Positions 30-15,949 of a stretch of 38,164 nt of DNA are shown here, piece by piece. Position numbers and translations under genes: made by a program. The stretch is from Serratia sp. Ag1 (lineage in GTDB: Bacteria; Pseudomonadota; Gammaproteobacteria; Enterobacterales; Enterobacteriaceae). Under the pieces are notes generated by a model that saw only the letters and a list, made by a program, of their open reading frames with translations, did not search any database and was not told where the DNA came from. Numbering within the stretch: position 1 is the stretch's first letter; each line of letters begins with the position of its first letter. The stretch spans positions 1 through 38,164 of the forward strand of contig NZ_JQEI01000028.1 of NCBI RefSeq assembly GCF_000743355.1. The letters run 5' to 3'.

Positions 30-2965
<2,936 letters not shown>

Positions 2966-3191
2966 TGTTAAATCCTCATATACCCTGCGTAGGGAAGGTT
3001 TTTTTATATTGGTCGGGTGGAGAGTAAGAATCTGCGGTTGGCTTAGCTTGATCGGGGAGAGCGATTCGTGATCGCTTTCATGGTTTTTATTTGGGCAAAG
3101 TGGTCTATTTTTAACGGAGTTCATAGACACAGTAATTTTGTTGTTAGCTCAGTTCATTTTCATTTTTTTATTGTTTATTAAAAATCAGAGG

Positions 3192-3216
3192 ATTAATCAC
3201 TCACTAGATGATTAAT
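3192..3216. promoter_or_regulatory. Candidate operator palindrome between the agl operon and its regulator
   Basis: ATTAATCA at 3192-3199 is matched by its exact reverse complement TGATTAAT at 3209-3216, with a 9-base spacer. It lies 34 bases before the GntR-type start codon in the shared divergent control region. A dimeric winged-helix regulator could bind here. The family's usual operator is shorter and this one is AT-rich, so chance is possible. A second, weaker repeat (AGCGAT, 5-base gap, ATCGCT) lies at 3060-3076. Confidence 0.4.
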
Positions 3217-3250
3217 TAAATAAAACGCAGAGCGCTAAAGAGGTCTACAG

Positions 3251-3988
3251 GTGATCTATAAATCTATTGCCGATCAGCTGCGAATTCGGCTGAACTCTGC
3301 CGATTACAATATTGGCAGCCCGTTACCGAGCGAAAAAAGATTGGCAGAGGAGTTTAGCGTTTCGCGTATGACCCTCCGTAAAGCGATAGATCTATTGATC
3401 GAATGGGGGCTGGTCATTCGCCGTCATGGCAGCGGAACTTATGTGGCAAATAAGGACGTCCATCACGAAACCACTAACTTGACCGGTTTTATTGAGGTAA
3501 TGAAAAACCAGGGCAAGCAGGTAGTGAGTGAAGTGCTGGAGTTTGTCGTGATGCCAGCACCACCAGCGATCGCCAGCCAGTTGCGGATAAAAATCGATGA
3601 GCGGATCTATTATTCGCGCCGGGTTCGCTCGGTGGATGGCAAACCATTAATGGTGGAAGACAGTTATATGCCCGTGAAGCTATACCGCAATTTATCGGTG
3701 GCTCATCTGGAGGGATCAAAGTTTGCCTACATTGAAGAAGAGTGTCAGATCATCATCTGCGGTAACTATGAAAGCCTGACACCGGTATTGGCGGATAAAA
3801 AAATGGCGACATTATTAAATATTGAACAGCAAACGCCCATTTTGCGAATCACCTCACTATCTTACAGCGACAGCGGCCAGTTTTTGAACTATTCAGTGAT
3901 GTTCCGCAACGCCAGCGAATATCAGGTGGATTATCATTTGAGACGTGAGTCCACTCACCGGCATATTGAGCCTGTGCAAGGGCAATAA
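3251..3988 (+). CDS. GntR family transcriptional regulator with UTRA effector domain
   Basis: DNA-binding regulator of 245 residues in the HutC/UTRA branch of the GntR family. The N-terminal ~65 residues form the winged helix-turn-helix (LPSEKRLAEEFSVSRMTLRKA, then the wing with RRHGSGTYV). Residues ~85-235 are the ligand-binding UTRA domain. The start is a GTG at 3251 with AGAGG about 7 bases upstream; it begins right at the canonical first helix, so no earlier start is needed. It is divergent from the alpha-glucoside PTS operon and most likely represses it until a phosphorylated sugar binds. That role is inferred from position. Confidence 0.88.
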   Translation: MIYKSIADQLRIRLNSADYNIGSPLPSEKRLAEEFSVSRMTLRKAIDLLIEWGLVIRRHGSGTYVANKDVHHETTNLTGFIEVMKNQGKQVVSEVLEFVVMPAPPAIASQLRIKIDERIYYSRRVRSVDGKPLMVEDSYMPVKLYRNLSVAHLEGSKFAYIEEECQIIICGNYESLTPVLADKKMATLLNIEQQTPILRITSLSYSDSGQFLNYSVMFRNASEYQVDYHLRRESTHRHIEPVQGQ

Positions 3989-4135: not shown

Positions 4136-6577
4136 ATGAATACAGAATTAACTAACGTCAAGATGCCCAGTGTCGAAGAGATAAAGAAAAGCGTCATCAG
4201 TAAGCTGCGATACAGTTTGTGTCTGGAAGTTGAAAGCGCAACTAATGTCGACATTTTCAATGCATTGGCATTAACCCTGCGGGATTATCAGCTTGATGGT
4301 TTCTTCAATACCCGCAAATCACAGAAAAAAGCCAAATCCAAGCGCCTCTATTACCTCTCTATGGAGTTCCTGATTGGTCAGTCTCTGCGTAATAACCTGA
4401 TGAACGTCGGATTACTGCAGCAGGCCAGACAGGCAATCAGTGAGCTGGGATTTGATTTTGAGCGCATCACGGCAGAAGAGCCGGACGCCGCGTTGGGTAA
4501 TGGCGGCTTGGGCCGCTTGGCGGCATGCTTTATTGATTCGATGGCTACGCTGGATATTGCGGCATCGGGGCATGGGATCAAATATGAATATGGTCTGTTT
4601 AAACAGGCGATACAGCACAACAAGCAGGTTGAACAGCCAGATGATTGGCATTCGACGCACTCCCCCTGGCTTATAGAACACCACTCGCAGTTGATGCTCA
4701 TCCCCATCGGTGGCCGGATTGAAGAAAGTGAAGATATCGAAGGTAACTACAATCCTATGTGGATGGATTGGAAGGTGATCGTCGGTATCCCGCATGATTA
4801 TCTGGTGACTGGCTACGGTGGCAAAACGGTGAATACCCTGCGGTTATACAGCGCGGGGGCTTCCGATTCATTTGATGTGCATATTTTTAACGGTGGTGAT
4901 TATCTGCGTGCCGTCAGCCAGAAGATCGCGTCAGAGAATATCTCCAAAATACTGTACCCGGCAGATGAGATCCATTCGGGTAAAGAGCTGCGGCTGACGC
5001 AAGAGTATTTTCTGGTAGCTTGTACGCTGCGTGATATTTTCCATGACTATGCGCAGCTCTCTTCCGATATTACGGCATTGCCTGATTTCGTCGCCATTCA
5101 GCTTAATGATACCCATCCGGCGTTAGCCATTGTCGAGATGATGCGTATTCTGGTGGATGAACATCGCTTGGATTGGGATACCGCCTGGGCAATTACGCAA
5201 AAAACCTGCTCTTTTACCAACCATACGTTAATGCCAGAGGCGTTGGAAACCTGGTCGGTCTCGTTGTTCGAGAAACTGCTGCCGCGCCATCTGCAGATTA
5301 TTTGTGAAATCAACCAGCGATTCCTGTCTGCGGTCGCCGAGAAGTGGCCCGACAAGCCGCACCTGCTGGCGTCGCTGTCGCTGTTTGAAGAAGGGTGGGA
5401 GAAAAAGATCCGCATGGCACATTTGGCCATTGTGGGCAGCCACAAGGTCAATGGGGTCGCCAAGCTGCATTCTGAATTGATCACCCAAACGCTGGTGCCC
5501 GATTTCTATTTCATCACGCCGGAGAAATTCACCAACCAAACCAATGGGGTGACGCCTCGGCGCTGGATCCAGCAGGCCAACCCTGGTCTGGCGACGTTTT
5601 TAACCCAGCAGTTGGGCAACGGTTGGGTGACTGACCTCGATAAACTGCAAAAGCTGAAACAGTTGGCGAAAGACAGCAACGCAGTGGAAGAAATCCAGTC
5701 AATCAAACTCAAGAACAAGCAGGCGCTTTGCCGCCAGATTGCTTTCCAGCAAGGTATTCAGGTTGATCCATTGGCCATGTTTGACTGCCAGGTGAAACGT
5801 ATCCATGAATACAAACGGCAATTGCTGAATATTTTGCATGTCATACATTTGTATCTGGAAATCACGGAGTCTGGCCGCAGCCAAACGCCTAAAGTCCATC
5901 TCTTCTCAGGGAAGGCTGCGCCAGGTTATGCGATGGCTAAATTGATCATCCAACTGATTAATGAAGTGGCGAAAACGGTCAATAGCGATCCGCGTACCAA
6001 AGGCCAGCTTAGCGTGCTGTTCCTGGAGGATTATAAAGTTTCGCTGGCGGAGCACATTATCCCTGCCACCGATCTTTCTGAGCAGATCTCGACGGCGGGC
6101 ACCGAGGCTTCTGGTACCAGCAACATGAAGTTTGCCATGAACGGAGCATTGACCATTGGCACGCTGGACGGTGCCAATATTGAGATCCGTGACGCCGTCG
6201 GCGCTGAGAACTTTTATCTGTTTGGTGCCAACGCGGACGAAATTAATCGGCATCGGCAGGCAGGTTCGCATAACCGGATTTATCAAAATAACGATCCCGC
6301 CATGCATGCTGCCGTCGAGGCGCTGATCTCTGGCCGTTTTAATGCAGATACCTCCGTATTCCGCCCTATTTATCAGATGTTGACCGAATATGATCACTAC
6401 TGCCACTTGCTGGACTTTGAGAGCTACCGCATTGCCCAGCATCAGGCACAGGCTGACTTTGCCCAACAGTTGCAATGGCATCAGCGGGCGCTGCTGAACA
6501 TTGCCAACATGGGCAGTTTCTCCAGCGATCGTACTATCAAAGGTTATGCGACGGAAATTTGGGGAATAGGTGCGTGA
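4136..6577 (+). CDS. Glycogen/alpha-glucan (maltodextrin) phosphorylase
   Basis: GT35 enzyme of 813 residues that cleaves alpha-1,4-glucan chains with phosphate, releasing glucose 1-phosphate in the cytoplasm. The pyridoxal-phosphate signature EASGTSNMKFAMN is intact, with Lys665 as cofactor lysine, followed by NGALTIGTLDGANIE. The N-terminal half carries the family markers YYLSMEFLIGQ and LGNGGLGRLAACF. Length fits GlgP (815 in E. coli) and MalP (797), and I cannot assign it to either. TAGGAG sits 7 bases before the ATG. No other glg or mal gene is nearby, so this may be an extra phosphorylase. The neighbouring alpha-glucoside operon suggests glucan use, but no shared transcript is evident. 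Confidence 0.93.
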   Translation: MNTELTNVKMPSVEEIKKSVISKLRYSLCLEVESATNVDIFNALALTLRDYQLDGFFNTRKSQKKAKSKRLYYLSMEFLIGQSLRNNLMNVGLLQQARQAISELGFDFERITAEEPDAALGNGGLGRLAACFIDSMATLDIAASGHGIKYEYGLFKQAIQHNKQVEQPDDWHSTHSPWLIEHHSQLMLIPIGGRIEESEDIEGNYNPMWMDWKVIVGIPHDYLVTGYGGKTVNTLRLYSAGASDSFDVHIFNGGDYLRAVSQKIASENISKILYPADEIHSGKELRLTQEYFLVACTLRDIFHDYAQLSSDITALPDFVAIQLNDTHPALAIVEMMRILVDEHRLDWDTAWAITQKTCSFTNHTLMPEALETWSVSLFEKLLPRHLQIICEINQRFLSAVAEKWPDKPHLLASLSLFEEGWEKKIRMAHLAIVGSHKVNGVAKLHSELITQTLVPDFYFITPEKFTNQTNGVTPRRWIQQANPGLATFLTQQLGNGWVTDLDKLQKLKQLAKDSNAVEEIQSIKLKNKQALCRQIAFQQGIQVDPLAMFDCQVKRIHEYKRQLLNILHVIHLYLEITESGRSQTPKVHLFSGKAAPGYAMAKLIIQLINEVAKTVNSDPRTKGQLSVLFLEDYKVSLAEHIIPATDLSEQISTAGTEASGTSNMKFAMNGALTIGTLDGANIEIRDAVGAENFYLFGANADEINRHRQAGSHNRIYQNNDPAMHAAVEALISGRFNADTSVFRPIYQMLTEYDHYCHLLDFESYRIAQHQAQADFAQQLQWHQRALLNIANMGSFSSDRTIKGYATEIWGIGA

Positions 6578-6673: not shown

Positions 6674-7945
6674 ATGGAACAGCTTACCCAGGGTGATTCC
6701 TCCAATACGATGGAGGTAACCATACTGATTGTCGATGATTCAAAAAGTTATCGTCATCTGATGGCGACAATGTTGGCTAAATGGGGTTTCAGCGTCTTTG
6801 AGGCAGAAGACGGTGAATGCGCATTACGCCTGTTAGAACAGCAACCGGTGCATATCGTCATCAGCGATTGGGAAATGCCGGTGATGGATGGGGTTGAACT
6901 GTGCCAGGCGATCCGTAAAAGCGATTTTGGTCATTACATTTATGTCATTCTGGTGACGGCCCGGCAGTCGCTTGACGATCTGCTCACGGGCATGGAGGCC
7001 GGGGCTGACGACTTTCTCTCCAAGCCGGTCAACCAGAGCCAGCTCCGTGCCCGGCTACACGCAGCAGAGCGCGTGCTGTTGCTGGAAAATACCCTGGCAG
7101 CACGTAACGAAAAGATCTCCTCCGCCTATCGGCAAATTGAGTCAGATCTGCAAGCTGCCGCGAAGATCCAGCACAGCGTTTTACCGGCTCATAACCTTTC
7201 GCTGGCCGGGTTCGAGGCCGATTGGATGTTCCTGCCCTCCGCGTATGTCTCTGGCGATTTGTTGAACTACTTCTCGCTGGACGAGCGGCACATCGCATTT
7301 TTCAGTGTGGATGTGGCTGGCCACGGCGTCAGCGCGGCGATGCTTTCTTTAGCCGTCTCGCGAGAGTTTATGACCGGGCGTATCAGTAGCCAACTGCTGA
7401 TCAGCCAGAATGAGGCCGGGGAAAGTACCCCGGTTGCACCGCATCAGGTGGTGGCAGAGCTGAACCAGCGTTTCTGCCTGGATAATGACGAGGTGTTCAG
7501 TTATTACACGCTGATTTATGGCGTGATAGATACCACCAATGGGCAGGGCACGCTGTGCCAGGCCGGGCATCCAACGCCTTTTGTTATTGGTAGCGGCGGT
7601 GAGTTACAGGCTGTGGGGCAGGGTGGCATGCCTGTGGGGTTGTTTCCTGACGCCGAGTATCAGGATAGTCACTTTACTCTCGGCGTTGGCGATCGCCTGT
7701 ATCTGTATAGCGATGGGATTACCGAGTGCGAAAACCACCAACAGGAACTTTATGGGGAGGAGCGCCTGCAACAGCTCTTGTGTGAATACCGAAAGTTACC
7801 GAAAAACCAGCTGTTTCAACGGGTAGAGAAGGCATTAAGCGCCTGGCACAGCGGCGAAACCGATGCCTTGCAAGAGCAGGATAAAAAGCCGTCTCGGCCT
7901 TTTGCCGACGATATCTCGCTGATGGCTATTGAACGCATAACCTGA
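6674..7945 (+). CDS. Response regulator with PP2C/SpoIIE-type serine phosphatase output (RsbU/HsbR-like)
   Basis: A soluble two-domain protein of 423 residues. Residues ~15-130 are a receiver (acidic pair Asp21/Asp22, phospho-acceptor Asp65 in SDWEMPVMDG, Thr95, Lys117). A coiled linker follows (~130-170), then a PPM/SpoIIE phosphatase with metal ligands Asp195 (VSGD), Asp213 (DVAGHG) and the terminal DDISL motif near 412. It should dephosphorylate a STAS-domain antagonist, and such a protein is encoded next. Unlike P. aeruginosa HsbR or Shewanella CrsR, there is no fused kinase domain; the kinase is separate (8548-9009). The usual GGDFYD motif reads SGDLLN. The likely phosphodonor is the Hpt-bearing hybrid kinase at 12814-15507 (inferred from proximity). 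Confidence 0.88.
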   Translation: MEQLTQGDSSNTMEVTILIVDDSKSYRHLMATMLAKWGFSVFEAEDGECALRLLEQQPVHIVISDWEMPVMDGVELCQAIRKSDFGHYIYVILVTARQSLDDLLTGMEAGADDFLSKPVNQSQLRARLHAAERVLLLENTLAARNEKISSAYRQIESDLQAAAKIQHSVLPAHNLSLAGFEADWMFLPSAYVSGDLLNYFSLDERHIAFFSVDVAGHGVSAAMLSLAVSREFMTGRISSQLLISQNEAGESTPVAPHQVVAELNQRFCLDNDEVFSYYTLIYGVIDTTNGQGTLCQAGHPTPFVIGSGGELQAVGQGGMPVGLFPDAEYQDSHFTLGVGDRLYLYSDGITECENHQQELYGEERLQQLLCEYRKLPKNQLFQRVEKALSAWHSGETDALQEQDKKPSRPFADDISLMAIERIT

Positions 7946-7985
7946 AGAGTTTGAGTGGCGGGGAGCTGAATGTTCTTCAGGCTGC

Positions 7986-8100
7986 TGACAAAGTTAGATA
8001 TTAGGGAGAGCGTGCCGATGGGGTCGTAGCGGCGTAAGCCGCCGGAGTGCCCCTCGGTGTGCTAGGCCCGAGTATCTCGGTTTAAAAGACCACTTTGTCA
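7986..8100. repeat. Structured intergenic repeat, MITE-like, with terminal inverted repeats
   Basis: TGACAAAGT at 7986-7994 is the exact reverse complement of ACTTTGTCA at 8092-8100. Inside are two tight hairpins: GCGGC-gtaa-GCCGC (8029-8042) and CCGAG-tat-CTCGG (8068-8080). A further pair, GAGTTTGA at 7947-7954 and TCAAACTC at 8101-8108, lies outside. The element fills most of the 234-base gap between the phosphatase gene and the STAS gene and has no coding frame. The arrangement suggests a non-autonomous palindromic element; copy number cannot be judged here because only one copy is in the window. Confidence 0.6.
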
Positions 8101-8179
8101 TCAAACTCAGAGAGCGGAACGCTCTTACCACGTTAAATATGACGCGTAGATCGACATAGCAAATACATAAGGAGTTTTT

Positions 8180-8518
8180 ATGAATTTTGATATTCAGTCT
8201 GAAGATGGGATCGAAGTGATTGTTCCGCTGACTCGTCGCCTTGATGCTTCGGTGGCGATGGTGTTCAAGCAGGAATTACAGTCTTTCATTCAGCAAGGGA
8301 AACACTACATCCTGTTGGATTTCAGCCACATTGATTTTATCGACAGTAGCTGCCTGGGTGCCTTGGTATCGATACTCAAAACGCTCAATGGCCGTGGTGA
8401 ACTGGCCCTTTGCTCCTTGAACAGCAATATCCAGCACATGTTCAAACTGACACGGATGGACAGAATTTTTACTATTGGCAGCGATCGCGCATCGACGTTG
8501 AAAGCAATGATCCGCTAA
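8180..8518 (+). CDS. STAS-domain anti-sigma factor antagonist (RsbV/SpoIIAA-like)
   Basis: A single STAS domain of 112 residues. The phosphorylation loop IDSSCLG holds Ser56 and Ser57, matching the DS(S/T)GLG loop of SpoIIAA and RsbV. In known partner switches the unphosphorylated form binds and occupies the kinase/anti-sigma protein, and phosphorylation by that kinase releases it. A PP2C phosphatase (upstream) and an RsbW-like kinase (downstream, 29 bases) are both adjacent, so the full cycle is encoded. AAGGAG precedes the ATG by 8 bases. It starts a compact plus-strand cluster that runs through to 12779. Confidence 0.9.
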   Translation: MNFDIQSEDGIEVIVPLTRRLDASVAMVFKQELQSFIQQGKHYILLDFSHIDFIDSSCLGALVSILKTLNGRGELALCSLNSNIQHMFKLTRMDRIFTIGSDRASTLKAMIR

Positions 8519-8547
8519 ACCAGGACATGATCCGTTAGAGGGGCCGT

Positions 8548-9009
8548 ATGGCAAGTGTTAGCACCACACTATGTTTACCGGCATCGCTGGGCAGTTTGGC
8601 TGAGCTGAGCAATGCGCTTTATGATTTCGTTGCGCCTTTTGCGCTTGATTCAGCGGTGGTTTATCAGGTTGATCTGGCTTCCTGTGAGGCATTTACCAAC
8701 ATCGTCAAGCATGCGGTGAACTATGATGATAGTCAGGAGGTGATCATTACGTTGAATCACGATGATCATTGCCTGACGTTAACCTTATCAGATGCGGGTA
8801 TTGCGCTGCCTGATGAAATCCGCCGCGAACTGGGGCACGCGCCTGCCCTGGCTCCCGATCCGCTCGTTGATTCCAGTTGGCCAGAAGGCGGCATGGGGCT
8901 GATATTGATTCAGTCCATGATGGATGGTGTCAGTTATAAAACGGAACAGGGGCGCAATATTCTGACATTAACCAAGCGCTTATCCAACGAGCCTTTGTGC
9001 TCTCAGTAA
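8548..9009 (+). CDS. RsbW-like anti-sigma factor / serine kinase (GHKL ATPase)
   Basis: A stand-alone GHKL ATPase domain of 153 residues, typical of SpoIIAB/RsbW. The N box is CEAFTNIVKHA (Glu47, Asn51). The G1 box is DAGIALP around Asp82, lacking the second Gly of DxGxG. The G2 region is PEGGMGLILIQ at 112-122. It should phosphorylate the preceding STAS protein and, when free, hold a target such as a sigma factor. No such target is encoded in the window. GAGGGG lies 5 bases before the ATG. No membrane segment is visible. The ATPase assignment is firm; the anti-sigma role is by family and context. Confidence 0.85.
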   Translation: MASVSTTLCLPASLGSLAELSNALYDFVAPFALDSAVVYQVDLASCEAFTNIVKHAVNYDDSQEVIITLNHDDHCLTLTLSDAGIALPDEIRRELGHAPALAPDPLVDSSWPEGGMGLILIQSMMDGVSYKTEQGRNILTLTKRLSNEPLCSQ

Positions 9010-9070
9010 GCGGTTTTGACAGGTAGATGAGTGGTTCACGCTTTTTAAGGTGAAGTGGCACGGAGTTTTT

Positions 9071-10948
9071 ATGATTGAGCCTTGTAGTCCTGCCAATGAA
9101 CCGTTGCGTCAACTGGCACTGGATTCGCTTCATGTGCTTGATACCAACGCGCTGGAAAAACTGGACAGAATCACGCGACTGGTGTCCAGTTACTTCAATG
9201 TGCCGATCGCGCTGGTTTCGTTGATCGATCGCGAACGCCAGTGGTTTTTATCGCGTTGTGGGCTGGAAGCCAGAGAAACGCCAAGAAATATTTCGTTCTG
9301 TGGGCATGCCATCTTGCAGAAGGAAACTTTTGTTGTGCAAGACACGGCCACCGATGAGCGATTTTTTGATAATCCCTTGGTGATCGGCGAGCCGAAAATT
9401 GGTTTTTATGCCGGGCGACCACTGTTGTCGCTTAATGGCTTACCGCTCGGCACCTTGTGCATCATTGACCGGCAACCGCGAACATTTTCTCCACAACAGG
9501 TCGCGGATCTGCATGACTTTGCGGCGATCGTCGAGGAACATTTTCACAGCATTGAGCGCAATATTTACACCGAAAGCCTTGAAACCGATCTGCAGCGCAG
9601 CGACGCCCTGTTTGAGCAGACATTTTCGCAAACTGCTGTAGGCATGGCGTTGGTTTCACTTGAAGGCTATTGGCTGCGGGTGAATCCACGTCTTTGTGAC
9701 ATGCTAGGTTACAGCGAGCGGGAATTGCTGGAGCGTTCTTTTCAGGTGCTTACGCATCCAGATGATCTGAATAACGATCTGGCTCTGTTGCGGCGATTAT
9801 TGTCGGGCGAAATGAGCACCTGCTCAATGGAGAAGCGCTTTTTCCGGGCCGATGGGGCGACTATCTGGGCACAATTAACCGTTTCATTAAACCGCTTACC
9901 TGACGGTTCTCCGCACCATTTTATTTCCGCTATTGTGGACATCACCGAGCGCAAAGTGGCGGAAAATAATTTGCGCACCCTGCAGCATGAGCTGGAAGAT
10001 CGAGTTATCCAGCGGACCAAAGAGCTGAATATTGTCGTGAACAAACTGAATCTGGAGATTGAAAGCCGGGTGCATGCTCAGTATTTGCTGAATACAGAGA
10101 AAGAACGCCTGCGTGCGATTACCGACAATGTGCCAGCTCTGATCAGCCAGGTTGGCCCCGATCTGGTGTATCAGTTTACCAACAGCGCTTATATGCATTG
10201 GTTTGGTTTTGACGAAGCGATGCTGAAGAACATGACCATACGGCAGTTGATCGGTGAAAAAGCCTATCTCAACGCTAAACCGCTGATCGAAAAAGCATTA
10301 CAGGGGCAAACGGTCAGTTTTGAAAATGAGTTGCAGACGCTGACCGGTGAACGGATTGTCCACACCACGCTGGTGCCTTGTGAAATCCAAGGGTTTTATA
10401 TTCTGTCGATGGATATCAGCGAGCTTAAACGCTTACAGCGGCGGCTGGAATATGATGTGACGCACGATGTGCTGACCGGCTTACCGAACCGGCGGGCATT
10501 TCTTAGCCAGTTGACACAGAGTATGGCGGAATGCGTGGCCGATAGGCAGTCGATGGCGGTGTTGTTCATCGATCTGGACGGCTTTAAGCAGATCAACGAT
10601 ACCTTTGGGCATGATTTTGGTGATGCCATTTTAAAAACGTTTGCCAAATTACTTGGTGGTTGCATCCAGCGCCTGGGGCTTGTCGCCAGGCTGGCTGGCG
10701 ATGAATTTACCGCCATTCTTTGGCACCTGTCGGAGCCCCGTGCAGCGGTGGGACAGGTTTGTGAAGAGATACTGGCACAGTTAGCCAGGTTGACCCGCAT
10801 TGGCGAACGGCAAATCACCTTATCTGCGAGCATTGGCGCAGTGATTTATTCAGGCGACAGCACCACGGCGAAAATGCTACTGGGGCAGGCGGATACCGCG
10901 ATGTACCGGGCAAAGTTGGCGGGTAAGAATCAGTATTCTATTTACTAA
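9071..10948 (+). CDS. Diguanylate cyclase with GAF and two PAS domains
   Basis: A soluble multidomain sensor of 625 residues that should make cyclic di-GMP from two GTP. Domain order: GAF (~17-160, with the FCGHAIL motif), PAS/PAC (~172-298), a helical linker (~295-340), a second PAS (~345-455) and GGDEF (~460-623). The active-site motif reads AGDEF (542-546), a variant that is usually active. The inhibitory I-site is absent: the RxxD positions hold Gln533 and Gly536, so product feedback through that site is not expected. I use the ATG at 9071, with GGAG 6 bases upstream, over the in-frame GTG at 9050. It is the fourth gene in the signalling row, 61 bases after the kinase gene. Confidence 0.9.
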   Translation: MIEPCSPANEPLRQLALDSLHVLDTNALEKLDRITRLVSSYFNVPIALVSLIDRERQWFLSRCGLEARETPRNISFCGHAILQKETFVVQDTATDERFFDNPLVIGEPKIGFYAGRPLLSLNGLPLGTLCIIDRQPRTFSPQQVADLHDFAAIVEEHFHSIERNIYTESLETDLQRSDALFEQTFSQTAVGMALVSLEGYWLRVNPRLCDMLGYSERELLERSFQVLTHPDDLNNDLALLRRLLSGEMSTCSMEKRFFRADGATIWAQLTVSLNRLPDGSPHHFISAIVDITERKVAENNLRTLQHELEDRVIQRTKELNIVVNKLNLEIESRVHAQYLLNTEKERLRAITDNVPALISQVGPDLVYQFTNSAYMHWFGFDEAMLKNMTIRQLIGEKAYLNAKPLIEKALQGQTVSFENELQTLTGERIVHTTLVPCEIQGFYILSMDISELKRLQRRLEYDVTHDVLTGLPNRRAFLSQLTQSMAECVADRQSMAVLFIDLDGFKQINDTFGHDFGDAILKTFAKLLGGCIQRLGLVARLAGDEFTAILWHLSEPRAAVGQVCEEILAQLARLTRIGERQITLSASIGAVIYSGDSTTAKMLLGQADTAMYRAKLAGKNQYSIY

Positions 10949-10985
10949 ATCAAGCTTGCTACGCGCATGTAAAGGAGCGGGCGGT

Positions 10986-12779
10986 ATGTTGAGAAAACTT
11001 GGCAAAGATGAAGAGGCTAGGCTGGCATCATTGGATGCGCTTGAGGCTCTGGGGGGCCTGAACGATGACGCTTTTCACAATGTTCTGGACATGACCTGTA
11101 TGCTGCTCGATCTGCCGGGGTGCCTGATCTATCTTTTTGGTGTGCAAAGAATATGGATTAAAGCAAAGAAGAATATTGAACTTGAGGTTATTCATTACGA
11201 TAGTCCGTTATTCAATTTTGTCCGTTACAGTGATGGCCCTCTGGTGTGTGAAGATGTGCTGCAAGACCCCCGCTTTGCTGCCGATCCGATGGCCACAGGG
11301 AAAACGCCTATCCGCCAGTTTATTGCGATCCCGCTGCGAACGGCTGAAGGTTATGTGATTGGCGCTGTCTGCGTGATTAACGGTGAACCGGGGCGTTTTC
11401 CTGAGTTCAAAACGGATCAGTTGAATAACATGGCCACGATCGTCACTGAACTGATTGAGGCACAAAGTGAAATTGGTTTGGTCGATGCGGTGACACATTT
11501 CCCCAATCGGCAGCGCTTGATGGGGGATCTCAAGCAGCTTTTGCCGGAGCAGGGTGAGTTTGTCCTGATCTTGATTGATACCCTCGATATTAAATATGTC
11601 TACGAAATTGCCCGTTCATTTGGCATGGCAGAAGTGGAAAGTGTGTTTCATGACATTGGCCACTTTCTAAAAACCACCTTTATGAATGAACAGATGATTT
11701 ACGCTATTTCGCTGGGGCGATTTGCGCTTATCCTGCAGGCAGAAAAGCTGAATCGCTATATAGGGCATATGGAGAATTTTGCGGACAGGATGCAGCGAGA
11801 AGTCCGCAGCATCGTACCGCTAAAACTGGACTTTTACGCCGGTTATGTCTGGTTTTCTCCACCTTGCACTCACCCGCCTGAATTATTGCGGATGGCTACC
11901 AGTGCGCTGCATGATGCTATTGACGGGCGTGGCACGATTGCCGCTTATAATGAGTCTAAAGACGCCACCCGCAAATTTAATCTGAATATGCTCAACGATC
12001 TGGCTGAAAGCCTGAACCAGCAGAGCGGGCTGTATCTGGTATTTCAACCCAAGGTTATTCTGGCAACGCGGAAAATTATCGGTGCAGAGGCATTACTGCG
12101 CTGGCAGCATCCGACCTTAGGTGAGATCCAGCCGGACGCCTTTATCCCGATGGCGGAAAGCACCTCATTGATTAAATTGCTGACCGAGTTTGTTATTGCC
12201 CATTCGGTTATTGAAGCCCAGCGTTTGCGTCAGTTAGGGATCACTATCCCGATCTCGATTAATATCAGCGCCAATAATTTTGCCGAGCAGGGTTTCGCGG
12301 ATAAGTTGGATAATCTGGTGCGTGCGGGTGGCTTACAGCCGCAGGATATTGAAATTGAATGCCTGGAAACACAGCGTATTCTGGAAAGTTGTGAAGCGTT
12401 GGCCTGCGTGAAAGCGTTGCGCCAAAGAGGATACGCGATCGCATTAGACGACTTTGGTACTGGCTACAGTAACCTCAATTATCTGCGTAACATCCCTGCC
12501 GATCTGATTAAAATCGATCGTTCACTGATCGAAAACCTAAGAACGGATCACGATAGCCGGGTCATTGTCCAAAGCCTGATTAAAATGCTGCATGACCTGA
12601 ATTATGTCGTGCTGGCAGAAGGGGTCGAAGACCGTGAAACGCTTAATTATCTGGAGCAATACCAGTGCGACGTTATTCAGGGTTATTTTTATTCTCCACC
12701 GATGAAGCTTGAGAGGCTGATCGCCCTGATCGATGCGGAACAGGATGGCATGTTGGCGTCCTGCCCTGACGAGGATTGA
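10986..12779 (+). CDS. Cyclic di-GMP phosphodiesterase, GAF + degenerate GGDEF + EAL
   Basis: A soluble protein of 597 residues that should hydrolyse c-di-GMP. A GAF domain (~15-160) is followed by a degenerate GGDEF domain (~165-325) whose active site reads SLGRF (242-246), so it cannot be a cyclase, and then an EAL domain (~335-580). EAL key residues are present: Glu368 in EALLRW, Asn426, Glu458, Asp488/Asp489 in DDFGTGYSN, Lys509, Glu545 and Gln565. I start at the ATG at 10986, with AAGGAGC upstream, rather than the in-frame TTG at 10956. It lies 37 bases after the cyclase, so opposing enzymes are co-encoded. Confidence 0.91.
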   Translation: MLRKLGKDEEARLASLDALEALGGLNDDAFHNVLDMTCMLLDLPGCLIYLFGVQRIWIKAKKNIELEVIHYDSPLFNFVRYSDGPLVCEDVLQDPRFAADPMATGKTPIRQFIAIPLRTAEGYVIGAVCVINGEPGRFPEFKTDQLNNMATIVTELIEAQSEIGLVDAVTHFPNRQRLMGDLKQLLPEQGEFVLILIDTLDIKYVYEIARSFGMAEVESVFHDIGHFLKTTFMNEQMIYAISLGRFALILQAEKLNRYIGHMENFADRMQREVRSIVPLKLDFYAGYVWFSPPCTHPPELLRMATSALHDAIDGRGTIAAYNESKDATRKFNLNMLNDLAESLNQQSGLYLVFQPKVILATRKIIGAEALLRWQHPTLGEIQPDAFIPMAESTSLIKLLTEFVIAHSVIEAQRLRQLGITIPISINISANNFAEQGFADKLDNLVRAGGLQPQDIEIECLETQRILESCEALACVKALRQRGYAIALDDFGTGYSNLNYLRNIPADLIKIDRSLIENLRTDHDSRVIVQSLIKMLHDLNYVVLAEGVEDRETLNYLEQYQCDVIQGYFYSPPMKLERLIALIDAEQDGMLASCPDED

Positions 12780-12805
12780 GCTTAGGTTCCTCGTCAGGTT
12801 TCAGT
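12765..12805 (+). terminator. Terminator-like hairpin overlapping the end of the phosphodiesterase gene
   Basis: CCTGACGAGGA (12765-12775) pairs perfectly over 11 bp with TCCTCGTCAGG (12788-12798), with a 12-base loop holding the TGA stop; TTTCAGTT follows. The T-rich 3' side suits termination of the plus-strand signalling transcript before it runs into the convergent kinase gene. Confidence 0.65.
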
Positions 12806-12813
12806 TAATTGAT

Positions 12814-15507
12814 TTATAACGTCTCTCTGGCCGCGATAAGCGAGGTTTGTAACTGTTTACACAGGGCTTCCAAGCCGTCGTATTGCGCCATAATCGCTGG
12901 CAGATTGCTAGCGAGAGCCGCCTGTTCCATCTGGCTGAGCCTGTTTTCCAGCGGGGTACAGGCAAAGTGTAGGCATTCGCCTTTCAGTTGATGAGCGCTG
13001 CGCCGGATAGCATTAAAATCCCGTTTCTCCAGGGCGCTCTGCAACGCGGCCAATAACAGAGGCAACTCTTCGATGAAGATGGTGACCAACTCGTCAAAGA
13101 GCGTTTTATCATCGCTCAACTGTGCCAAGGCTTGTGAGTAATCGAAGATTGGCGCTTCTGGCTCTTCCTGGCTGAGGTGGTAGACGCGCTGAATTTCTGC
13201 CCCCAGGCTTTCCAGCAAAATGGGTTTACTGATGTAACCGTCGAATCCGTGGGTTAAGCACATTTCCCGGTCACCTTTCATGGCGTGTGCGGTCATGGCG
13301 ATGATCGGCTGATGTTTACCCGGCTGCTGTTTTTCTTGGGCACGAATATGCTGCACGGCTTCAATCCCATCCATTTCCGGCATTTGCAGATCCATCAGAA
13401 CCACATCGTACGGCCCCTGGGCCAATTTCTGCAGCGCCAGTTTGCCGTTGCCCACCACCTCAGAGGTATGGCCCAGTTTGCGGATGAAATTGATCGCCAG
13501 TTGCTGGTTGATCAGATTATCTTCGGCCACCAGAATGTGATAACCGTTATGTACTTCTGGCACCGATTCGCTCTGCGCAGGCAGGGTTTTGTTGGCCTCT
13601 TCCGGGATCAGGGTGCGTATGATGATTTCCTGCAGTTCAGCGGTATCGATAGGTTTGGTCAGAAAGCCCGAGACGCCGACTTTTTTCAGCACGGCGGTGT
13701 CTATCCGGTTACCCATGGAACTGAGCATGATCAACTTACAGCGGCGCAAGGCAGGCGTGGACATAATCTCCAGTGACAATGCCATACCATCCATTTCTGG
13801 CATTTGTGAGTCCAACAGAATCAACGGGAAATGCGAGCCATTGTTCAGCACTTCCAAGGCAGCCTTGCCGGAGTTGACGGTGTGAGGTTTGAACCCCATG
13901 TTGCGCAGCATATCGAACAGTAAACGCAGGTTGGTGGCATTATCATCCACCACTAAAACTGGCATACCGACCAGCGCCTTGGGCAGGGCGGTGACAACGC
14001 GAGCAGGGCTTGCGTCAGCACTGGCTTTGGCCGGTAGCGAAAAGTAAAAACAGCTGCCATGCCCTGGCTGGCTGGAGACCTGCAGTTTACCCCCCATCAT
14101 CGCCACCAGGCGGGCTGAGATGGTCAGCCCCAGCCCGGTTCCGCCGTATTTACGCGTGGTGGAAGTGTCCGCCTGGCTGAACGATTCGAAAATAATCGCC
14201 TGCTTGTCTTCGGCAATGCCAATGCCGGTATCGGTAATACTGAATGTCAGCATACCCGGTGGTGAGAGGGAAGGAGTGACGCGCAACACCACTTCGCCGT
14301 CGTGCGTGAACTTAAGTGCGTTGCCAATCAGGTTGGTCAGGATCTGCCGCAGGCGTAGCGCGTCGCTGTAAAGCGTGGTTGGGACATCGGGGTGGATATC
14401 CACGATCAGTTCCGGGCCCTTTTCGGCGAATTTGGACATCAGTGGCCGGGTAATTTCGTGGATCAACGTCCGCAGCGTAAAGTTTTCCGGCTCCAGAACG
14501 ATTTTCCCAGCCTCGATTTTTGAAAAATCCAGAATGTCGTCAATGATCTTCAACAACGCGCGTGCGGACGAGTACACCATGTTGATGTAGTCCCGTTGCT
14601 CTTTGTTGAGATTGGTTTCCAGGCATAGCTGAGTCATCCCCAGGATCCCGTTCATCGGCGTGCGGATCTCATGGCTCATGTTGGCCAGGAATTCACTCTT
14701 GGCCTGGCTGGCGGCGCGGGCCAGTTCAACGGACTGGCGAGACGAAAACTCAGCCTCTTTGCGCTCGGTGATGTCCTGCAGCGTGCCGATTGCCCGTTGC
14801 ACCTCACCTTGCAGACCCAGGCTGATGATTTGCCCCTGAATCAGTACCCAGCGATAGTCACCGCCCTGATGCTTGATGCGCACTTCGCAGTCAAATACGG
14901 GCAAAATCGCGCTATTGGCCTGATGCAGGCTTGCCAGCAACAGCGGTAAATCGTCGGGATGCAGCACCTGTTGCCACAAAGCAGAGGTAAATTGATTGTT
15001 ATCGCGGCTAACCCCCAGCAGCAGTAACAGCGCGTCGTTAACCTGCAACCGATCCTGAGTACAATCCCAGTCCCAAATCCCAATATGAGAGGTTTCTGCC
15101 GCCAGAATGAAATTGTTATGCAATATCTGCCCGGAATGGGTGATCTCGGCATATTGGGTAATATCGGTGTGCAAACTGATAATGCCGCCACCGGGTACCT
15201 GATGATGTTGCACATACAGTGTGCGATCCAGCAGGCTGCGGATTTCGCAATGGCCATCCTGCCGGTAATTATTGAGCACGGTTTCGGCCAACTGTGGTTT
15301 TTTTTGCAGGTGAGAAGGGGTAATACTGGTATTGAGCACGCAGTCGATCACGGCTTTTAGTGGCATTCCGGCCCAAAGCTGCCCCTGTAACCCCGGGTAA
15401 TACTCTACGACTTTACTGTTCCAGTAGGACAGCCGTTCTTCTTCGTCGTAAACCAGCAACGCAGCCTGCAAGGCATCTAAGGCGGGGAGTGACAGGTTAT
15501 TTTTCAT
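12814..15507 (-). CDS. Cytoplasmic hybrid histidine kinase: PAS-PAS-HisKA-HATPase-REC-REC-Hpt
   Basis: A phosphorelay kinase of 897 residues without visible membrane segments, so it should sense inside the cell. Domains: PAS (~8-118), PAS/PAC (~130-250), HisKA with His279 in [12 protein letters not shown], HATPase_c (~375-495; N box at 396, DTGIGI, GGTGLGL), receiver 1 (Asp566), receiver 2 (Asp706), and Hpt with His839 in AHQLKGE. I start at the ATG at 15507, preceded by AGAGG; this overlaps the end of the globin-like gene by 11 bases, so the two are co-translated. The frame open upstream to 15708 is the out-of-frame shadow of that gene. The terminal Hpt could pass phosphate to the receiver-phosphatase at 6674-7945 (inferred). 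Confidence 0.93.
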
Positions 15508-15949
15508 CCATCGCCTCTTTACTGACATCATGATGCAATTCCGCCTGGCGGCGCATAAACTCCAAGCCTGGCGCCATAAAAATTGCCCAGGCGGTGAGCA
15601 CTTCTTCATCACACTGCGGATCCAGATCGCGCACGGTTTGCAGTACCGCGCGTCGCCAGTAGGCAAACACCGAGGCGGGCAGATTGAGACCGTGTTCGCT
15701 TTGCTCACGGGTCACGTGTTCCAGGTAGTCAGAGACGATGTAGCTGGTGGCAACAGACAGCATATAGAAAAATGATTTATAGATTATTTTCTGCTGTACC
15801 TGATGAGCTTCGGGGCTTGGCAAGACATTAAGCGCCTGGGTGCTTTTGATGAACAGCGCATAGAAATGGGAGAAGAAAGCATCCCCTTGATCCGCTGAGG
15901 TAATCCGGTCGTAGCTATCATTGAACAGCACTTCGTAATTTGTGCTCAT
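15497..15949 (-). CDS. Globin-like protein, putative sensor partner of the hybrid kinase
   Basis: A 150-residue all-helical protein that fits the single-domain bacterial globin pattern: an [10 protein letters not shown]-helix (~25-33), a long E-helix region (~50-75), an F-helix region (~76-88), then [14 protein letters not shown] and [18 protein letters not shown] for G and H. In my recalled alignment with related globins (motif RHS...LxIP) the haem-binding proximal His falls at Gln83 here; His78 and His86 are nearby. It may therefore bind haem differently or not at all. I start at the ATG at 15949 (AAGGA upstream) because the sequence open to 16057 does not look coding. It overlaps the kinase gene by 11 bases, which argues for a direct functional pair. 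Confidence 0.65.

Follow-up and report, generated by a model that had tools for sequence, protein, structure and literature searches.

A conserved five-gene core of globin-fold protein, hybrid kinase and partner switch beside c-di-GMP or polysaccharide genes in Serratia sp. Ag1 and its relatives

A stretch of 38,164 nucleotides from Serratia sp. Ag1 (contig NZ_JQEI01000028.1 of assembly GCF_000743355.1, a genome of 5.35 Mb in 109 contigs), referred to here as the window, carries a signalling locus whose stable core is a set of five genes, for a globin-fold protein, a hybrid histidine kinase ending in a histidine phosphotransfer (Hpt) domain, a phosphatase with a receiver (REC) domain, a STAS antagonist and an RsbW-like serine kinase. 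In the window a predicted diguanylate cyclase and a predicted phosphodiesterase of cyclic di-GMP (c-di-GMP) are added, and the block is probably the signalling skeleton of an exopolysaccharide (EPS) locus that has lost its polymer genes and has been re-equipped with these two enzymes. Most descriptions of partner switches give them a single, fixed output. The five-gene core is found beside a polymer locus, beside c-di-GMP enzymes or beside neither, apparently after separate losses of polymer genes, and it therefore allows one to ask how a switch changes its targets; it also places a likely non-heme globin in a two-component pathway.

Distribution and gene order

A survey of 392 genomes of the family, searched twice with the globin called at E<1e-30 and the phosphatase at E<1e-20, gave 24 genomes with the globin, 35 with the phosphatase and 23 with both (G and L numbers below are our handles for genomes and loci). 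Weak globin matches in G059 (E 1.3e-4) and G453 (8.6e-4), a short second globin fragment in G337, and 32 of the 67 genomes with a phosphatase match, whose best E was worse than 1e-9, were dropped. The phosphatase thus accompanies the globin in 23 of 24 globin-bearing genomes versus 12 of 368 globin-less ones (Fisher P = 2e-27, uncorrected for ancestry), in line with the proposal that the globin/hybrid kinase pair and the partner switch belong together. The two genes are separated by no more than about 11 kb in 22 of the 23 double-positive genomes; in the remaining one, G475, they are found on two contigs, each of which ends inside a GT2 gene. The STAS and RsbW-like genes stand beside the phosphatase gene in all 35 loci.

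The original prediction had described seven genes in a row, and all seven were confirmed from the list of open reading frames (ORFs) and from their domains as intact genes, with the same positions, domains and order; its observation stands, while its interpretation holds in part only. A conserved gene neighbourhood in relatives, on the absence of which that prediction had said it would fall, was recovered by the gene-order search: the seven-gene order is complete in the window, in S. oryzae (L039) and in L040 and L041. The cyclase and phosphodiesterase are missing from it in L042 (H1w) and in Edaphovirga (L100/L171). The idea of the seven genes as a natural unit had to be given up, as the c-di-GMP pair is an accessory of four of the six loci in the closest clade, the usual linked partners being polysaccharide genes (26 of 35 loci). 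Elsewhere, among the loci examined, the pair was not seen at this position; among the 392 genomes, the best phosphodiesterase homologues outside the genus share 40-41% identity across their 335 N-terminal residues, and for the 18 phosphodiesterase homologues read, flanks of 1.5 kb showed no cyclase of this type. Two of the seven genomes of the genus, G002 and G005, gave no globin and no PP2C match, their best whole-phosphatase matches covering the receiver part only.

Polysaccharide neighbours and probable origin of the window form

GT2 and DUF3131 genes were present in the fetched flank of 26 of the 35 phosphatase loci, namely in 19 of the 23 with a globin and 7 of the 12 without. The common form consists of two divergent operons, OpgC-barrel-phosphatase-STAS-RsbW-like and GT2-DUF3131x3-globin-kinase-GH2, where "barrel" is our label for a protein of ~300 residues without a Pfam match in L102; "EPS locus" and "polymer genes" are likewise labels of our own. 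In G054, from another family, the order is phosphatase-STAS-(374 aa)-RsbW-like-GT2-DUF3131x3. The full polysaccharide form occurs on plasmids, and the locus can therefore travel on them: one is a conjugative-typed plasmid of Salmonella enterica (L224, CP074295.1), the other a 353-kb plasmid of Chimaeribacter arupi typed as non-mobilizable (L225, NZ_CP119396.1), and for both copies the public annotation gives the same genes in the same order.

At the window locus the DUF3131 and GT2 genes of the exopolysaccharide form are absent, and no DUF3131 was found in seven genomes of the genus, including that of the window (G000), in a search which detected the three genomes known to contain it. An intermediate is provided by L172 (G372), with the arrangement GT2-DUF3131x3-globin-HK-GH2 > < RsbW-STAS-PP2C-barrel-glgP (HK, hybrid kinase). 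L173 (G483), of the same genus code, reads globin-HK > < RsbW-STAS-PP2C-glgP, has no polymer genes and keeps all five core ORFs at full length; this bare frame is matched by Edaphovirga and H1w, and in the S. oryzae group the cyclase and phosphodiesterase genes occupy the place held by GH2 in L172. G677 (L239), from another genus, encodes phosphatase-STAS-RsbW and globin-kinase in five full-length ORFs with no polymer genes at the locus; its genus mate G437 (L182) has them. In the kinase tree the window clade groups with L172/L173, with support of 100/100. The phosphatase tree, which left out L199 (broken phosphatase), L183 (no phosphatase) and L076 (false row), is compatible, with the same pairing at 76/65, and needs at least three changes of polymer state. 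The window clade, G483 and G677 would thus have lost the polymer genes while keeping the core. Since the cyclase and phosphodiesterase are present in L041 and absent from its sister L042 and from L171, they must have been gained or lost more than once.

Several points weigh against this account. Both c-di-GMP genes are missing in L042 and L171; the core can thus dispense with them, and nothing more than closeness may tie them to the switch. In addition, 12 of the 35 phosphatase genomes have no globin, which shows that the switch does not require it. The glgP gene of G437, 69% like that of the window, lies away from the switch. DUF3131 was counted at switch loci, and in the G677 and g224 genomes the polymer genes were sought within about 20 kb. 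The kinase tree is midpoint-rooted and carries a long-branch warning at L172/L173, rooting of the phosphatase tree is uncertain (the branch of the outgroup L044 amounts to about 6-10 changes per column), and the Fisher test ignores ancestry. That loss is preferred over gain is owed to the identical gene order in distant genera and not to the trees alone.

The locus also includes a specialised glycogen phosphorylase gene, glgP (4136-6577, + strand; Pfam PF00343), which lies upstream of the phosphatase gene. It is the third phosphorylase gene of this genome, versus two in the block-less G002 and G005, and it adjoins the switch in the window, L039-L042, L171-L173, L191-L194 and L196-L198. The gene that separates STAS from RsbW-like in L192 is similar to sugar-1-phosphate nucleotidylyltransferases, with every match below the curated cut-offs. 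Taken together, this gene and the presence of glgP beside the switch in several loci point to a polymer that may be fed by glycogen-derived glucose-1-phosphate. In L191 (G458), the OpgC and barrel matches next to the switch are fragmented, and the fetched 20 kb contain neither GT2 nor DUF3131; the switch is followed by hybrid-kinase-like and REC-GGDEF genes, possibly another change of output.

Components of the window locus and their conserved residues

The REC-PP2C (SpoIIE-type) phosphatase (6674-7945, + strand), the response regulator of the switch, has its relative of known structure in PDB 3eq2 (E=1.4e-44), which we take to be PA2798. The expected phosphoacceptor, Asp65 of the REC domain, is Asp in 39 of 40 real rows; the metal-site residues D195 and D213 of the PP2C domain are kept in 40/40, and D347, D412 and D413 in 39/40 (the false row L076 was dropped, and L199 has a gap). 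The STAS antagonist (8180-8518, + strand; Pfam STAS), with the motif IDSSCLG, matches TM1442 (E=7e-12) and SpoIIAA in the PDB, and Ser56 and Ser57 of its DSS motif are kept in 38 of 39 rows, the exception being L199. The RsbW/SpoIIAB-like serine kinase (8548-9009, + strand; Pfam HATPase_c_2) is a separate protein with PDB matches to RsbW (6m36, E=1.3e-6) and SpoIIAB (1til); E47 and N51 of the N-box, D82 of the G1 box, G84 and G115 are invariant in 38 rows, and G117 is kept in 37 of 38. G117 left aside, the departures at these positions sit in L199, a degenerate locus whose phosphatase gene is in two pieces. With intact PP2C aspartates, a phosphorylatable STAS serine and GHKL N- and G-boxes the three proteins fit the PP2C/STAS/RsbW partner switches, and STAS is the predicted substrate of both kinase and phosphatase.

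The hybrid kinase (12814-15507, - strand) has the Pfam architecture PAS-PAS-HisKA-HATPase-REC-REC-Hpt, and its residues His279, Asn396, Asp426, Asp566 of REC1, Asp706 of REC2 and His839 of Hpt are kept in 28/28 orthologues. In L041 and L042 the first PAS domain is missing (the match starts at residue 124-127), from which it follows that this domain is not essential to the arrangement. The gene overlaps by 11 bases with that of the globin-fold protein (15497-15949, - strand). The two accessory enzymes, both assigned by Pfam, are a GAF-PAS-PAS-GGDEF diguanylate cyclase (9050-10948, + strand) with the motif AGDEF and no I-site (no RxxD) in 4/4 loci, and a phosphodiesterase of GAF, degenerate GGDEF and EAL domains (10956-12779, + strand), in which EAL, DDFGTG and the other motifs sought are all kept in 4/4. 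The ratio dN/dS versus L039 ranges from 0.03 (glgP) to 0.15 (RsbW-like), with purifying selection on every gene measured. The spacers amount to 234 bases between phosphatase and STAS, 29 between STAS and RsbW-like, 40 between RsbW-like and cyclase, 7 between cyclase and phosphodiesterase, and 34 between phosphodiesterase and the convergent kinase.

Proposed mechanism and alternative outputs

Every arrow of the following scheme we infer from gene content, linkage, fold and residue conservation. The globin-fold protein, probably heme-free, would bind the hybrid kinase encoded next to it, at its PAS-PAS end, and regulate it, a contact suggested by the overlap and co-inheritance of the two genes. 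Inside the kinase, phosphate would then pass from His to REC to Hpt, and from there to Asp65 in the receiver domain of the phosphatase, the residues concerned being conserved. The phosphatase would dephosphorylate the STAS protein and the RsbW-like kinase would rephosphorylate it, as is the rule in the families of SpoIIE/RsbU, RsbV and RsbW, and STAS or the RsbW-like kinase may bind an output protein according to the phosphorylation state. In most relatives the candidate output is the linked GT2/DUF3131/OpgC/GH2 polymer machinery, whose linkage is observed and whose role is presumed; in some loci glycogen phosphorylase could supply this machinery with glucose-1-phosphate. In the S. oryzae group the GAF-containing cyclase, the EAL enzyme or both may take its place, by analogy with the action of HsbA on HsbD in Pseudomonas.

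There is a real, if smaller, chance that the cyclase and phosphodiesterase form an independent GAF-sensing c-di-GMP module which shares nothing with the switch except the operon promoter. Both enzymes have GAF or PAS input domains of their own, and the pair is absent from two of the six clade loci (L042 and L171); against this, it sits between switch and kinase in four genomes under purifying selection, and phosphorylated HsbA binds the cyclase HsbD in Pseudomonas, a direct precedent according to the accessible part of PMC5085249.

It is unlikely that the locus is a stress-type anti-sigma switch, in which the RsbW-like protein would hold a sigma factor (RpoS or another) until STAS frees it. 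Homology to RsbW and SpoIIAB would fit such a role, the best NCBIfam match of the REC-PP2C protein is the Pseudomonas RssB equivalog (NF045505, 174.7 versus a cut-off of 700 bits), and HsbR-HsbA acts on RpoS and FlgM (PMC6482189, available portion). However, the RsbW-like kinase scores 48.3 versus a cut-off of 145 bits with the equivalog of the Bacillus anti-sigma B factor RsbW (NF003144), the linked genes are polymer or c-di-GMP genes, and no sigma factor or FlgM was seen among the proteins scanned at the loci or in the annotated plasmid copies. The original prediction had left room for a sigma-factor output, for which the genes scanned at these loci thus lend no support.

The globin-fold protein

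Pfam and NCBIfam gave no match for the globin protein of the window or its orthologues in L076, L101 and L102, and profile and structure comparison were therefore used instead. A structural match covering the domain (VIA-align on the best 1000 chains of Foldseek) assigns it the globin fold, and it is related to the single-domain globin PA3967. In the alignment with 1tu9, Gln83 lies under a His that is presumably the F8 proximal ligand. Among 27 orthologues (L171, whose hit is in another frame, was left out; its species is also covered as L100) the residues at this position are Gln (23), Ser (2), Arg (1) and His (1, in L175), and no other His of the window globin is kept across all 27 rows. In the distant single-domain relatives L077-L091 a His is found at this position in 15/15, as judged by eye after dropping the false hit L092. 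Thus, the globin-fold protein, a likely sensor partner of the kinase, is also likely non-heme. As a free protein of 150 residues it is fused neither to an output nor to a STAS domain, and in this it differs from globin-coupled sensors and globin stressosomes.

A heme gas-sensor reading by analogy with NosP/NahK had been considered and was dropped in view of the alignment; with the proximal His lost, sensing of a gas through heme cannot be assumed for the globin. Binding of heme through another ligand, with sensing of O2 or NO, would agree with the globin fold, the kinship to PA3967, the His of L175 and that of the 15 distant relatives; we hold it to be improbable in view of a single proximal His in 27 orthologues and no other conserved His of the window protein. 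In Edaphovirga a second globin-like fragment (L171:15673-15765; 58% over about 31 residues) lies ~5.4 kb from the intact globin and is perhaps the remnant of a duplication.

That two unrelated operons merely adjoin, the partner switch with its c-di-GMP enzymes and a globin/kinase pair with its own regulator elsewhere, is quite improbable: the halves lie on separate strands, 12 of 35 phosphatase genomes are globin-less and G277 has globin and kinase with no phosphatase match in the genome, yet the phosphatase accompanies the globin in 23 of 24 genomes (in 22 at a distance of about 11 kb or less), the pair persists through differing arrangements (convergent, or divergent ~10 kb apart) and where the intervening genes are missing (L173, L239), the kinase ends in Hpt and the phosphatase starts with REC, and G277 has two transposase-like ORFs (by eye) where the other half would sit.

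Comparison with known systems

The nearest worked-out pathway is HptB-HsbR-HsbA-HsbD of P. aeruginosa, and the present locus may well work in the same way without being a member. Each combines a diguanylate cyclase with input from a hybrid kinase, an Hpt, a REC-PP2C protein and a STAS antagonist. Unlike the Pseudomonas pathway, the locus has a separate serine kinase, an Hpt fused to the hybrid kinase and an added EAL enzyme; its sensor and kinase genes lie in one locus, and a sigma factor or FlgM partner was not seen among the scanned proteins. Members of the HsbR/CrsR family combine REC, PP2C and kinase in one polypeptide. The phosphatase described here stops after residue 423 and has no kinase domain, the kinase being a separate gene, and in place of the stand-alone Hpt gene of the HptB pathway there is the C-terminus of the hybrid kinase. 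ErcS' (PA1976) is listed as a proposed upstream sensor of the HptB pathway in the portion of PMC5085249 at hand; NCBIfam treats NahK and ErcS' as one kinase.

With the Vibrio-type globin stressosome (RsbR-RsbS-RsbT-RsbX), for which c-di-GMP or phosphorelay outputs have been proposed in some species (PMC9237108 and PMC4976288, as far as accessible), the locus shares a globin-fold input, STAS and serine kinase/phosphatase chemistry. In that system the globin is heme-binding and fused to STAS, whereas here it is free, paired with a histidine kinase and devoid of the proximal His. For SypE-SypA of Vibrio fischeri, which belongs to a different locus, we know of no linked globin kinase. SypE-SypA resembles the present case as a STAS-based switch over a polysaccharide locus (PMC10120452 and PMC4517449, accessible parts).

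Orphan STAS genes and a possible link to Klebsiella

In K. pneumoniae an accessory block that marks population structure has been described (PMC12974863), for which the locus would provide annotated and testable content; in the available part of that paper it has no tested function. Block 3a/3c comprises kfuABC, EAL and GGDEF proteins and glycogen/PTS genes. Listed for block 3b are cellulose synthase, three DUF3131, OpgC, a hybrid kinase, an anti-sigma factor and an antagonist; the two blocks lie at two places in the genome and are grouped by linkage. Block 3b is given there as a gene list, and the globin, the STAS domain and SpoIIE do not appear in the available text. The accessible part of a paper on K. 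pneumoniae cyclases (PMC12355678) contains nothing on the locus.

About 0.5 Mb from its switch, G437 has its glgP (69% to that of the window), a STAS gene (58% to that of the window, DSSCLG intact), CSS-EAL and GGDEF genes and a three-gene ABC transporter set, whose NCBIfam matches are all below cut-off, such that kfuABC is a guess only. From this gene content G437 would be a Klebsiella, and its regions would correspond to blocks 3a and 3b. Such orphan STAS genes were found at L230:9025-9363 and L238:11103-11435, beside glgP and CSS-EAL in two genomes of one genus, at over 0.4 Mb from the main locus, with no phosphatase or RsbW-like gene near them in the fetched 20 kb. Among the 20 genomes of the genus of G437, orphan and switch STAS occur together in 2 and neither in 18 (P = 0.005, uncorrected), the two being close kin with about 91-95% DNA identity in these regions.

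It is a tentative and rather doubtful suggestion that this portable phosphorelay and partner switch, fed by a non-heme globin, represents a detachable control head of the enterobacterial biofilm matrix, swapped between polymer machine and c-di-GMP enzymes and addressing more than one STAS protein. If true, one kinase/phosphatase pair would serve two antagonists, and the 3a-3b linkage in K. pneumoniae would have a molecular cause.

Other features of the window

Upstream of glgP, positions 30-3988 hold genes for a 6-phospho-alpha-glucosidase-like protein and a transporter of the phosphotransferase system (PTS), named from their sequence, and a GntR/UTRA regulator (Pfam); these genes are kept in L039 and L040, not in L041. 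The Rfam scan returned a tRNA as its sole match, and the promoter scan (11 versus 9.5 +/- 3.3 expected) and the terminator scan (14 versus 9.3 +/- 2.7) contained no usable signal.

Between the phosphatase and STAS genes lies a palindromic interspersed repeat of ~140 bases (7976-8113, no strand assigned), which is outside the conserved locus; in L039 the end of the phosphatase ORF, at 7967, is closely followed by the STAS match, from 7977 on. Besides two contig-end copies, at least 39 further places in the genome carry the repeat, 4 of them short (40 of 83 candidates were scored), with 77-96% identity to the window copy. Its RNA would fold into a hairpin of -57.8 kcal/mol (z -4.1), and the insertion could alter the ratio of phosphatase to STAS in this strain. 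The repeat is spread over many contigs (e.g. L052-L056) and might mark the genus. Two contig ends (G000:C30:1-589 and G000:C24:58573-59092) are 99-100% copies of window positions 7525-8113, where the phosphatase gene's 3' part is joined to all or part of the repeat. Both break at the same base of the phosphatase gene, and the C24 copy stops at the last base of its contig, 59092; they are probably the product of mis-extension at the repeat during assembly.

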